The notes under the pieces are model-generated. The model was not told where the DNA came from, made no database searches, and saw only the letters and a list, made by a program, of their open reading frames with translations. The position numbers were made by a program, and so were the translations under genes. A stretch of DNA of 45,034 nucleotides from Prevotella sp. (GTDB taxonomy: Bacteria > Bacteroidota > Bacteroidia > Bacteroidales > Dysgonomonadaceae). How positions within the stretch are numbered: the stretch's first letter is position 1; each line of letters starts with the position of its first letter. The DNA is taken from NCBI GenBank assembly GCA_031273295.1, contig JAISSD010000243.1:1-45034 (forward strand), in the 5' to 3' direction. Shown in pieces: positions 1 through 22,500 of the stretch.

Positions 1-2259
1 GTCGACGTTCTTGTCTTTGACAATAGCAACAGCAAATTCCTGTGCCATGCTCCGGGAGAAGACATAGCCGATGCATCCGGCGGTGGCAATGCAAAAACCT
101 TCATCGTGGACTTGTCGGAGGCCGGCGACGTCACATCCGTCCAGGTAATGGTTATAGCCAATGCCCATACCATTGTAACTGCGGCGGTTGGAAATACGAT
201 CATATCCGGTACCACTACTGCAACGGAAGCAATGACAAAGCTGGAATTCACTTGTCCGGGCAAGTGGAATGTAACCAAGGCCACCGCCACGGATTTCACG
301 CCTTTTCCGATGTGGGGCATGGAGACTGTAGACCTGTCCGACATTGAGTCGATACAGGCCATATCACTGATGCGGGCTGTTGCCAAAATAGACGTCGGAC
401 TCAATTTCAATGGTGAAACGGCTCAGGGACTTTCCACATTCAAGCTCGAATCGGTTTATCTGTACAATTCTCACGGCAAGGGTTCCGTGTCTCCTTATAG
501 CGGCAATTATTCGGGAGCAACTGCTACTGCGGTATCCATACCGTCGGCAGCCGCCGTCAACACTACCAATCCGGTTCCATACGACAAGGCAACTACCACT
601 GATGGTTTCAGCGGGGACGTCTCTTGCATGAATGCGATATACATGGCAGAGCATGCCGCAGGGACGGCAGGCAATGCCAACAATGCCTGCCTTGTCGTTG
701 GAGGCAAATACAACGGTGAAGCCACTACCACCTGGTACCGTATCGACTTTGTGAATACAAGCGGGACATACCTGCCGGTTTTGCGCAATCACCGTTACAA
801 GGTCAATATCAAAAGCGTGGTTCACAGGGGTTACGCTACCGCGGCGGAAGCTTTGGTCGGGGATGCCCTTGCCGCCGTGCAGATCTCTGTCACAAACGAG
901 TCTTTGACTTCCCATGCCTACAACAAGGATTATTCATTGAGCGTCAGCACAGACGCTTTTACTCTCGCCAATAATGCTGTCAATACAACTGGAGCTATAA
1001 GTTTGTCCACAAGTTATCCGGGTGGTTATACAACTGCAGTCACGTCCACCGGCAGCTGGCTGGCAATATCGGCTGGCGGGTCAAGTACGGCCCCTACTGC
1101 AACAGGGTCGCTCAACACAATCACCGTTCGCGCTTCTTCGGCAAATACAACTGGCAGTCCCCGTTCCGGAACTGTCACTGTCACTTCGGGATTGTTGACA
1201 AGAGCGGTCACCGTCACTCAGCCTGCGGCCAAAACCTTTACCGTAGCTAATGCATTGGCCGAGTACCCTGCCAACGGTGGTCTACAGACTCTGGCGGTTA
1301 CTTCGAATTGCGAGTGGTGCGTGAAACTAGACTACCTTGGCAATATCGTCGTGTCTTTCGATACAGGCGTTTTCACCGGAAACAAAAACTTCGCTTTCAC
1401 GCTGATCGACAACGATCCCGTGATTGTTTACGGCGATGATCTTTCCGCCACTTTCACCTTTTACAGTCCCGCAGGCGAGTTTGAACCTGTATCCAGAACC
1501 GTAAAACTGCCGGAGTTGGCGACGACGTATATCCCTACCCCTGTCACTTCCGGTGGTTGGGCGGGCAGTAATATTTATTGGGATGGTAGCAAGCTCACTT
1601 TTGCCGACGCGGACACAACCGATAAAGGATACTATCAGGGCGTTTACTTCAGGTGGGGCAGCCTGTGGGGACTTGATGCAAGTGGCGGTTACTGGTCTAC
1701 ATCCAAAATAGTCTACAAGCCCAATGCTGCCACTAACGGTTGGACGTCCGCTACCGGTTATGCAGGGAATAATATACCTTATGCCGCGTCTAGTGATGTC
1801 AACGATAAAACCCGTGCCTTTCTGTACGAGATTCACAATCCTTCCATCGGTAAGGGTGATATATGCCGTTACATAACTGACGTTGCGGGCGGCTCGTTGT
1901 ACGGCAAGAGATGGCGTATGCCTACATACAGTGAGTATGAAAACGCAGATTGGGGCGGCAAAACAGGTACATTCAGTGATGTTAGTTCCAGCGCCAATCG
2001 TCCCGACGGTACGTGGCAGAATCCCAATAAGCCGGCTTGGAAAATGACTTCCGGTGTGGTCTTCCCCGCTTCCGGGTGCCTCTCCTACACCAGCCTCGAG
2101 CTGTTCTCCGTCGGCACCGACAACAGCGGCTATCGGACGTCGTCAGCCACCGGGCCGACTACGTACGGCGTCATCGATCCCGATCCCGGCGATCTCGAGT
2201 CTCTTGTGCCCGCTACCACTCGGTCGCAGGGCTCGCCTGTTCGTTGTGTCTCGTATTAA
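1..2259 (+). CDS. Fimbrillin-family surface protein with BACON domain and hypervariable C-terminal lectin-like tail (5' partial)
   Basis: The reading frame is open from base 1 (VDVLVFDNSNSK...), so the start and the expected lipoprotein signal lie left of the window; the GTG at 106 is internal. The first ~280 residues match the fimbrillin (Mfa/FimA-like) pattern, including the VxVFDN strand and the late RNHRYKVNIKSV strand. A BACON-type repeat follows at about 1000-1226 (GSWLAIS ... GTVTVTSG ... VTVTQPA), probably for glycan or mucin binding. The C-terminal third has the FISUMP/C-type-lectin-like pattern GKRWRMPTYSEYENA ... VVFPASGCLSY ... SPVRCVSY. Such proteins sit on the cell surface as adhesins. 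The last ~55 codons differ sharply in codon use from the rest (see the variable-region entry). The family call is firm; the ligand is unknown. Confidence 0.85.
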   Translation, partial: VDVLVFDNSNSKFLCHAPGEDIADASGGGNAKTFIVDLSEAGDVTSVQVMVIANAHTIVTAAVGNTIISGTTTATEAMTKLEFTCPGKWNVTKATATDFTPFPMWGMETVDLSDIESIQAISLMRAVAKIDVGLNFNGETAQGLSTFKLESVYLYNSHGKGSVSPYSGNYSGATATAVSIPSAAAVNTTNPVPYDKATTTDGFSGDVSCMNAIYMAEHAAGTAGNANNACLVVGGKYNGEATTTWYRIDFVNTSGTYLPVLRNHRYKVNIKSVVHRGYATAAEALVGDALAAVQISVTNESLTSHAYNKDYSLSVSTDAFTLANNAVNTTGAISLSTSYPGGYTTAVTSTGSWLAISAGGSSTAPTATGSLNTITVRASSANTTGSPRSGTVTVTSGLLTRAVTVTQPAAKTFTVANALAEYPANGGLQTLAVTSNCEWCVKLDYLGNIVVSFDTGVFTGNKNFAFTLIDNDPVIVYGDDLSATFTFYSPAGEFEPVSRTVKLPELATTYIPTPVTSGGWAGSNIYWDGSKLTFADADTTDKGYYQGVYFRWGSLWGLDASGGYWSTSKIVYKPNAATNGWTSATGYAGNNIPYAASSDVNDKTRAFLYEIHNPSIGKGDICRYITDVAGGSLYGKRWRMPTYSEYENADWGGKTGTFSDVSSSANRPDGTWQNPNKPAWKMTSGVVFPASGCLSYTSLELFSVGTDNSGYRTSSATGPTTYGVIDPDPGDLESLVPATTRSQGSPVRCVSY
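2083..2253 (+). other. Candidate DGR variable region (VR)
   Basis: From FPASG to PVRCVSY the gene changes character. In the 48 codons that follow GCT TCC GGG, 28 end in C, A is scarce (23 A in bases 2091-2220), and residues vary with no obvious hydrophobic pattern, while fixed points (FPASG, SVG, TSSA, PVRCV) match the frame of lectin-fold DGR targets. This is what adenine-directed mutagenesis of AAC-rich template codons leaves behind. The region sits at the extreme 3' end of the gene, where DGR variable regions lie. No template repeat or reverse transcriptase is visible in this window, so any retroelement would act in trans or lie to the left. Confidence 0.6.
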
Positions 2260-2269
2260 GAGAATGGTA

Positions 2270-2282
2270 GCGCCGGCGGCGC
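2270..2282 (+). other. GC hairpin just after the variable region
   Basis: GCGCC-GGC-GGCGC is a perfect 5-bp stem with a 3-base loop, 10 bases after the stop codon. DGR targets studied in phage need a short hairpin just downstream of the variable region. The position fits, but the stem is shorter than those described. Confidence 0.35.
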
Positions 2283-2910: not shown

Positions 2911-3453
2911 ATGGAAAATAAAAAAAAGAAGAAGAAACTTGATATCCCGGAAATACTGGAGCGGGAAAACAAATGCCCTGATTTTATAAATCTGTATCTT
3001 GTGGGCCGTTCATGGAAGGCTTACGAGCAGTCTGTCTGTAAAATAGATCGCTGTTGTAAGGAAGGTAATGACCTGTTGCTCTGTTGTAAGGAAGGCGATA
3101 GCCTGCTGCGCTGTTTTGCGGAAGGCTTGATGATATTGACGGAATATGTCAGTAGCGTGAGGCCGGAAGTATATTTAATCCGTATCCCGGAAGGCAGTCT
3201 TCTCCGGATTTTTGACCCCGCCCGGATTGAACGGGTATCCGACAGTCAAATCAGGATACCGTGTCCGCCGCTGGAGGAATCCTATTATCAGAACTGGCTT
3301 GCGGTACAGTCGACCAACCCGTATCCTTGCGTGGAGTGTAGTTTGGAGTTGCATCCGGAAAGAGATCTTCGTGTTTACAGCGCTTTATTGGCACTGAACC
3401 TCAAGGCGTTCGATCAGCCAGCCGTCTTTGCAGCGATTACAGCCGCCGGCTGA
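2911..3453 (+). CDS. Hypothetical protein with Cys-rich 10-residue tandem repeat; 3' end possibly frameshifted
   Basis: 180 codons, family not recognised. No signal peptide; the N-terminus is a lysine run (residues 4-10). Residues about 50-78 are two and a half copies of a 10-residue unit, CCKEGNDLLL, CCKEGDSLLR, CFAEGLMILT, mirrored in DNA as a 30-bp tandem repeat at about 3052-3130. A second Cys pair lies in YPCVEC. The frame stops at 3453, but the +1 frame across 3410-3530 reads fluently (QRLQPPAECQYKVKDR, then YDASHTPLDW) with ordinary codons and leads toward the downstream ORF in a third frame. The gene may therefore be a broken longer gene rather than a complete 180-residue protein. Confidence 0.5.
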   Translation: MENKKKKKKLDIPEILERENKCPDFINLYLVGRSWKAYEQSVCKIDRCCKEGNDLLLCCKEGDSLLRCFAEGLMILTEYVSSVRPEVYLIRIPEGSLLRIFDPARIERVSDSQIRIPCPPLEESYYQNWLAVQSTNPYPCVECSLELHPERDLRVYSALLALNLKAFDQPAVFAAITAAG

Positions 3454-3488
3454 ATGCCAATACAAGGTCAAGGACCGGACTTGTATGT

Positions 3489-3755
3489 ATGATGCCTCGC
3501 ATACACCGCTGGATTGGCAATCCGGAAGAAAAGGAAAGGGAAAAGATACTGGCTCAGGTTCGCAAGCATGTGGATGCGCTAAAGTCCCAGGCGGGGCATC
3601 TCACGGGTACGAAGCTATATAAAGATATTTGCAAACTGGCGGATTCTCTTTTGGAGCAGCTGTCGGTTTGGCAGAAAGCGGGTGCGCCTCCTCCTCCTGC
3701 TTCCTCTTCCTCTCCCCAAACCGGCGCTTCCGTTCAAAAGGAGGAGTCTGTCTGA
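3489..3755 (+). CDS. Small helical hypothetical protein with Pro/Ser-rich tail
   Basis: 88 codons, not recognised. Residues ~12-60 are charged and probably helical (NPEEKEREKILAQVRKHV ... LYKDICKLADSLLEQL); the last ~25 residues are a low-complexity Pro/Ser tail (APPPPASSSSP). It lies 35 bases after the previous ORF, in a different frame. The first ~12 residues (MMPRIHRWIG) use poor codons, while the overlapping frame reads better there, so the true N-terminus may belong to a frame-disrupted gene starting at 2911. Confidence 0.45.
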   Translation: MMPRIHRWIGNPEEKEREKILAQVRKHVDALKSQAGHLTGTKLYKDICKLADSLLEQLSVWQKAGAPPPPASSSSPQTGASVQKEESV

Positions 3756-4015: not shown

Positions 4016-4552
4016 ATGAAAATCAGATCTTTCCTATTCACGTTTGCCTGCCTGCTCGCATCCAATACGGGTATGATCGCCCAAAGCGGCAGTCTGGCCG
4101 CGGGTACAAAAATTACAATGTTTGACGACAAGAAAAAGAATATTGAAAATCTGGAAGTTGGCGATGCAGTTTTGTCATTCAACACGAAAGACAAGGTATA
4201 CGAAGAAAAAAAGGTAAAAAGTATAAAGAAGATCATGTACAACCGGCTGGTGCGTGTCACACTGGAAAGCGGAATGCAACTTACCATGACCGGCGACTGT
4301 CCGTTTCTGGCTGAAAAAGGCTGGGTATCCGTTGATCCGGGACCGGACGAACCAGACAAAAAATATACCGGTGTAAAACCTTGCCGGACAGGAGAATTCA
4401 CTCTTTTCTACAATGTGACCAGTACCGACTATGTAGAAATCACCGCCATACAAGGCATAATGGCACCAACCCAGACTTATATGGTAGAACTGGAAGGAAA
4501 CGGCGCCATTATCGCCAACGGTTTTCTGGCGGGACAAAACAAGATGGAATGA
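4016..4552 (+). CDS. Secreted free-standing Hint (hedgehog/intein) domain protein
   Basis: 178 residues. A signal peptide (residues 1-23, ending MIAQ) is followed at once by a Hint domain. Its N-terminal block SLAAGTKITM ... NIENLEVGDAVLSFN begins at residue ~26 with Ser where Cys is usual. Block B reads LTMTGDCPFLAEKGWVSV, with Cys where the TxxH histidine is expected. The C-terminal block YMVELEGNGAIIANGFLAGQ lacks the His-Asn pair. Almost the whole mature protein is the Hint fold, with no exteins to splice. Bacteroidetes carry small secreted Hint proteins of unknown role; this one looks catalytically altered. It overlaps the next gene by ATGA. Family call firm, function unknown. Confidence 0.8.
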   Translation: MKIRSFLFTFACLLASNTGMIAQSGSLAAGTKITMFDDKKKNIENLEVGDAVLSFNTKDKVYEEKKVKSIKKIMYNRLVRVTLESGMQLTMTGDCPFLAEKGWVSVDPGPDEPDKKYTGVKPCRTGEFTLFYNVTSTDYVEITAIQGIMAPTQTYMVELEGNGAIIANGFLAGQNKME

Positions 4553-22099: not shown

Positions 22100-22500
22100 A
22101 CCATTTGGCCGGAGCGCTGTTTTTGCACACAGACGACGCGGATTGAACGGACGAACGCAGATTGTAGACGGTGAGTTTCGCATCCCCTAATCGTTTTATT
22201 GGGGGTAAATGCGTTCCGATAACAAACACGAACAATCCGGTTCGGGCGCACATACAGGTTTAGGTGCACAGACAGGTTCGCCCCTACGTTGACAATGATG
22301 GCATAAAATCGTTTGATCTCCGGCGCAAAATAATGATGTGTAACGCATGGGTATTTAAATACGGGAGCGTCAGGCATTGCTGTTCGTATTTCAAGCTCAA
22401 CAGGTCTTCGGGGAATAATGTTCGCCGGAAGAGAGGGGGATACGGCAGGCGTAAAAGAAATACTTCACAACTTCTTGTGGCGGTGCTGTAAAGATGAAAT
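22100..22500. other. Intergenic region with dispersed repeat sequence, no gene
   Basis: Contains repeated CACAGACAGGTTCGCCCCTA and a related GCGCACATACAGGTTTAGGT (about 22227-22292), the GTAGGGGCGAAC-type intergenic repeat. ORFs on both strands here lack a plausible protein. Confidence 0.5.

Follow-up and report, generated by a model that had tools for sequence, protein, structure and literature searches.

Probable orphaned variable repeat of a diversity-generating retroelement in a pilus-tip adhesin gene of Prevotella sp.

Diversification of the type V pilus tip pilins of Bacteroides by diversity-generating retroelements (DGRs) is on record (Macadangdang et al. 2024; review PMC12632263). As outlined in that review, these pilins resemble the adhesin described here in being of the fimbrial tip type with a variable C-terminal binding domain; they differ from it in that many paralogs are found in a single genome here and that the copy under study has neither template nor reverse transcriptase (RT) at its locus. 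Remote targets, and targets remaining in strains that lack RT and template, are likewise described for the DGR of Treponema denticola, which in the cited passages has two to seven targets and one template, as against 54 tails and several template types here (PMC4891356). Thiohalocapsa PB-PSB1 offers a parallel for many DGR loci in one genome, for degenerate loci, for an inferred action in trans and for MITE-like repeats near the loci; its nine loci, a number which its authors term unusually high, and 15 targets are linked to conflict systems in that account, whereas here the targets are pilus adhesins and are more numerous (PMC10907252). DGRs with many copies of the variable repeat (VR) are also on record, the large example in the cited source being of a non-A-to-N type (PMC6642488). 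Since tip-pilin DGRs, remote or left-over targets and genomes with many loci are known, the system reported below is of a known kind and unusual in the size of its repertoire. A repertoire of this size, or arrays of the kind described below, were not met in a limited literature search, and absence from print is not claimed.

The stretch of DNA analysed (the window, 45,034 nucleotides) is the entire contig C51 of genome G000, an assembly of 4.17 Mb in 312 contigs with a completeness of 98.26% and a contamination of 2.48%. The features of the locus are listed in Table 1. The adhesin matches the Pfam families Mfa2 (1.6e-6) and BACON (1.8e-6) above cut-off, and the NCBIfam FimD tip adhesin below cut-off (2.8e-9; 36 bits, cut-off 170). 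Its reading frame is open at the contig edge, and the start of the protein is therefore missing; none of the 19 matches of positions 1-300 showed another contig overlapping the start of this one.

Table 1. Features of the adhesin locus and of the RT remnant in the window.
Feature	Position	Strand	Basis
Adhesin ORF: Mfa2-type N-terminal part, BACON, C-terminal domain ending in variable tail	1..2259	+	Frame open from base 1; Pfam
Variable-repeat-like tail of the adhesin	2062..2250	+	A-poor; 35:4:35 against C49 template; one of 54 such tails
3' flank common to other tails of the family	2260..2273	+	One mismatch to 14-base flank
GC-rich inverted repeat (stem 5 bp, loop 3 nt), 20 bases behind the RCV anchor	2270..2282		Shuffle test
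Frameshifted gene, first part; relative of the gene immediately upstream of the RT on C41	2911..3453	+	40.9% identity over 2938-3414
Frameshifted gene, second part, other frame	3420..3755	+	47.0% identity over 3420-3749
RT C-terminal remnant	22303..22413	+	68% identity over RT residues 361-397, E 1.4e-11

The initial annotation had described the final ~55 codons of the adhesin (2083-2253) as A-poor and NNC-rich, with fixed anchors, and both features proved real. Adenine makes up 24 of the 171 bases (0.14), below all of the 637 earlier 57-codon windows of the ORF (0.193-0.287), so the drop in A goes beyond anything in the remainder of the gene. Third-position C reaches 0.49 of the 57 codons; values of up to 0.491 occur elsewhere in the ORF, so NNC-richness by itself does not set the tail apart. 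In a comparison with 17 larger ORFs of the contig, picked by hand (7,467 windows), 0.46% of the windows were equally A-poor and 0.04% equally rich in third-position C. The anchors were found in the translation of the ORF. Judged by homology with other tails, the limits given in Table 1 appear better drawn than the earlier ones.

The tail belongs to a large family. An nhmmer search of 149 loci plus the window (150 sequences) returned, at E up to 1e-3, 70 template- or tail-like elements that are not identical to one another, and our own motif rule returned 54 distinct ORF tails, the window tail among them; for 46 of these the ORF is 200 codons or longer, and the upstream domain signature is present in 50. 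A limited number of candidates was scored, and more than 54 tails may therefore exist. Aligned with paralogs and tails, the adhesin has an anchored C-terminal domain with a hypervariable tail. This domain gave 50 matches in its own genome and one or two each in six of 24 other genomes of the genus; across the family, 13 genomes out of 100 others had matches, never more than three. A DGR-like RT (E up to 1e-10) was found in seven of the 24 other genomes of the genus, at about 50% identity only in G007 and G008. Identity in the tail was below that of the preceding sequence in all 11 paralog pairs compared (0.956 before the tail and 0.798 within it for C222/C290, 0.937 and 0.740 for C91/C70, 0.922 and 0.764 for C70/C56), with a small contrast in C225/C115 (0.935 and 0.909), a pattern that would fit a process focused on the tail. 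Paralog domains matched Lcl_C and Fib_succ_major below cut-off only, and the domain of the window adhesin matched nothing. No solved relative of the domain was found at E up to 1, and its structure model (pLDDT 32) was unusable.

The mismatches between tails and templates have a clear direction. With symmetric scoring against six templates, the window tail differs from the C49 template at 35 sites with A in the template, four with A in the tail and 35 others (35:4:35), the A-directed pattern of the tip-adhesin targets of this genome. Pooled over the 54 tails of the genome, the ratio of template-A to tail-A mismatches was 1543:386, with 1010 others; for six tails from the same genus it was 144:126, with 217 others (Fisher test of 35:4 against 144:126, p = 7.5e-6). 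With five templates the ratios were 1622:381 for the own tails and 161:109 for the six same-genus tails, and that of the window tail was unchanged. Identity values, given first for template-A sites and then for the remaining sites, were 0.36 and 0.69 for the window tail, 0.46 and 0.79 for the 54 own tails, and 0.51 and 0.55 for the same-genus tails. The templates are A-rich and the window tail is A-poor, so composition alone yields part of the 35:4. Those own tails whose upstream domain is most like that of the window adhesin (C198, C102, C15, C222 and C290) have a weaker A-direction (0.49-0.74).

True pairs of template and target usually have 75% of their mismatches at template A, according to the cited part of PMC8144416. 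The window tail, with 35 of 74 mismatches facing A in its best template, lies below this value. Its best local A-aware match was the C167 template (114 columns, 67 matches), with 25 template-A mismatches and 22 others, seven of these with A in the tail. One A-aware scan reached a best real score of 35, ending about halfway along the tail, against up to 19 for the reversed-query null; no cognate template was recovered by A-aware scans of the fetched loci. The check proposed in the initial annotation, a near-copy of the tail with all mismatches at A, has so far come out negative: no near-copy appeared in whole-genome DNA searches with the tail, a template of the genome and template flanks, or with a predicted template as query, among the candidates scored (up to 40 for each query). 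Among the 70 elements the window tail has no close partner, its best local match to another being 76 of 111 columns. The cognate template may belong to a lost lineage, or it may lie in a gap where the contigs carrying RT genes break off.

DGR machinery is present elsewhere in the genome. An RT family search of the assembly gave seven matches, six of them above cut-off, and a query with DGR-type RTs gave 13: four long matches (C152, C154, C41 and C68), five copies that break off inside the gene at contig ends (C108, C310, C104, C84 and C38) and four short C-terminal pieces (C258, C227, C97 and the remnant in the window). The NCBIfam matches of the RT were all below cut-off, the best of them being to group II RT. 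The closest RT in named genomes was 54% identical, in a search from which records of the window's own genome may be missing. A profile of the four long RTs matched the solved chain 8ub7_A, which we take to be the BPP-1 DGR RT, at 1.2e-41; the second-best chain had 8.3e-8. The RTs are thus closer to DGR RTs than to those of group II introns, retrons or DRTs, and an assignment to group II introns or retrons was rejected on these values.

Contig C68 carries a complete cassette in the order target, bAvd (Pfam 1.3e-13, above cut-off), template and RT. Its template differs from its own target only at template A (13:0:0), and the values against tails on other contigs are 17:1:0 (C224), 15:0:1 (C225) and 13:1:0 (C115). 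The template fits these three tails almost only by changes at template A, and the DGR has therefore written genes on other contigs. Two further tails (L120 and L124) scored best with this template and misfit it (26:11:35 and 23:12:33). Five AAC-rich, full-length template-like sequences are found on C49, C95, C167, C121 and C261, contigs which carry none of the 13 RT matches, and shortened templates on C57, C289, C160, C204 and C203. The five full-length templates, which stand alone (L004, L008, L009, L016 and L017), directly follow a conserved element with inverted ends, as judged by eye; the same element occurs without a template on C201 and C169 (L148 and L149). On C121 (L143) a tail, a relative of the window's neighbour gene, an Avd in two frames and a template stand in a row with no RT match, apparently another decayed cassette. 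Several mutated template-like copies in short ORFs surround two of the long RTs, those on C154 and C152 (L130 and L131), and such copies also occur on a third contig, C264 (L394).

Arrays of template- or tail-like copies occur at DGR loci of other organisms as well. When one profile was run over 80 cellular and 80 viral DGR RT loci, two copies were found at 41 and 60 of them, respectively; five of the cellular loci, from gut Bacteroidales by their titles, had 9 to 14 copies, and none of the viral loci had more than three. In Odoribacter lunatus DSM 112344 (L224:2698-6300) eleven copies precede the RT: one lies in an ORF of 902 codons, and the other ten lie in short ORFs at a spacing of about 280 bases. 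One A-rich unit of this array explains the tail of the target gene (9:0:0 over 159 columns), and a second unit accounts for a short-ORF copy (15:0:0 over 162 columns), so at least one array copy outside the long gene was also written. The same test gave no clean pair of unit and copy at eight other loci. In four relatives of Rikenella and Alistipes by titles (L195, L196, L197 and L198), nine to fourteen copies with an A content of 0.10-0.25 lie before or around the RT, with no clean pair of template and copy. In Parabacteroides chinchillae DSM 29073 (L271:5286-7800), four short A-rich copies (A 0.30-0.33), spaced at about 365 bases, come after one long target ORF; they appear to be multiple tandem templates.

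Behind the window tail lies a short flank which is present within two mismatches in 28 of the 54 tails. The 14-base pattern was picked after the flanks had been seen; two matches occurred in 1,500 background stretches, both by position on the window tail's own flank. The GC-rich inverted repeat that overlaps this flank was equalled in one of 200 shuffles (p = 0.005). A GC-rich inverted repeat shortly after the variable repeat is also a feature of the BPP-1 target site, where homing requires a hairpin or cruciform immediately behind the VR; stems in the phage set measure 7-10 bp with a 4-nt GRNA loop, as against 4-7 bp and 3-6 nt here (PMC3240598, passages on the target site). Stems of five or more lie within 40 nt behind 15 of the 54 tails and differ from gene to gene with the pairing kept. 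No stem of four or more is found behind 22 of the 54, including the clean targets on C224, C225 and C115, and the inverted repeat is therefore unreliable as a mark; it may serve in transcription end. Repeats at 2336-2430 resemble the GAATTAAG-type simple repeats that are joined to shortened templates in L033, L034, L035 and L037; L372 (C182) has the opposite end.

The gene downstream of the adhesin is broken; its reading frame changes near 3414-3420, which may be an assembly error. Further relatives occur on C117 and, in part, on C121. No convincing Pfam match was obtained, and a low-confidence model (pLDDT 56) has four helices in the second part. An identification as a plain Avd was rejected: the second part has no bAvd match, and the second half of the C41 relative has no BLAST similarity to the C68 Avd. 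By its similarity to the gene beside the C41 RT, the neighbour gene marks this site as a one-time DGR cassette or as something related to such a cassette. The statement in the initial annotation that RT and template are absent holds for the template, the best one found anywhere having fewer than half of its mismatches at A, and has to be amended for the RT, of which a short C-terminal remnant lies 20 kb off. A small ORF at 4016-4552 has an intein-splicing-like (Hint) match (E 5.9e-6, under the Pfam cut-off).

Taken together, the window tail is probably the VR of a pilus-tip adhesin diversified by a DGR, and has since been orphaned. The family resemblance, the A-directed mismatches, the machinery in the same genome and the broken neighbour gene are direct observations; we infer that mutagenic homing wrote the tail and that it is now an orphan. 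An error-prone DGR RT would have copied an adenine-rich template RNA, and the resulting cDNA would have replaced the 3' end of the adhesin gene, changing AAC- and AAT-derived codons of the putative lectin-type domain and sparing the anchors. This would have taken place in a host with a large adhesin family, in which at least one complete DGR has written several remote genes. Later the local machinery would have been lost or broken and the tail left behind, as suggested by the frameshift in the DGR-associated neighbour, the lack of RT and template nearby and the failure to find a template of its lineage. The orphaned target is best read as part of a cassette that has decayed, or as a remote target with its template missing from the assembly. 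The earlier view of the tail as a DGR target thus gains the DGR RTs, AAC-rich templates and related tails of its own genome and the 35:4 ratio, and still lacks the cognate template; its reserve that the target would be remote or orphan was right, and the frameshifted neighbour favours the orphan.

As a special case of this reading, the tail could be a remote target that is rewritten in trans today from a template and RT hidden in an assembly gap. The five RT copies that break off at contig ends, beyond which the adjoining sequence is unassembled, and the remote targets written from C68 speak for such activity; the broken neighbour gene, the five assembled full-length templates of which none fits, and the isolated position of the tail among the 70 elements speak against it and make it rather doubtful. 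That the tail was not made by a DGR at all, and that selection or an exchange of tails between paralogs diversified what is an ordinary C-terminal domain of lectin type, is very unlikely. Exchange could also make tails more variable than the preceding sequence, as in the 11 paralog pairs, and the same-genus tails without A-direction carry the same anchors, four of the six coming from genomes without an RT match; the A-direction of 35:4 and the abrupt loss of A, in a genome with evident DGR writing of sister tails, are at odds with this explanation.

The size of the repertoire may in part be an effect of the assembly, if variants from different strains or contigs of contaminants were taken for loci of their own. 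The number of contigs, the contamination estimate and the 13 pairs formed by upstream regions with a likeness of 88% or more, in three cases close to 98% over 178-198 bases, point in this direction; most of the 46 longer ORFs have no such partner in the upstream comparison, and we consider the effect unlikely. It would leave the signal in the window tail intact. There is also a slim chance that the species runs a distributed DGR network of dozens of tip adhesins, templates without RT and RT loci with arrays of short, mutated cassettes, the latter acting as a silent store that feeds expressed tails by recombination; the window tail, its own template gone, would then still be rewritable from elsewhere. 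Such a store would join DGR mutagenesis with cassette-type antigenic variation.

Pilus tips diversified by DGRs are a reported way for gut Bacteroides to vary adhesion. If upheld in a closed genome, the repertoire would exceed the 15 targets reported for Thiohalocapsa PB-PSB1 several times over, and it would give access to the number of targets served per RT, to the decay of orphan targets and to the use of stand-alone templates in trans.
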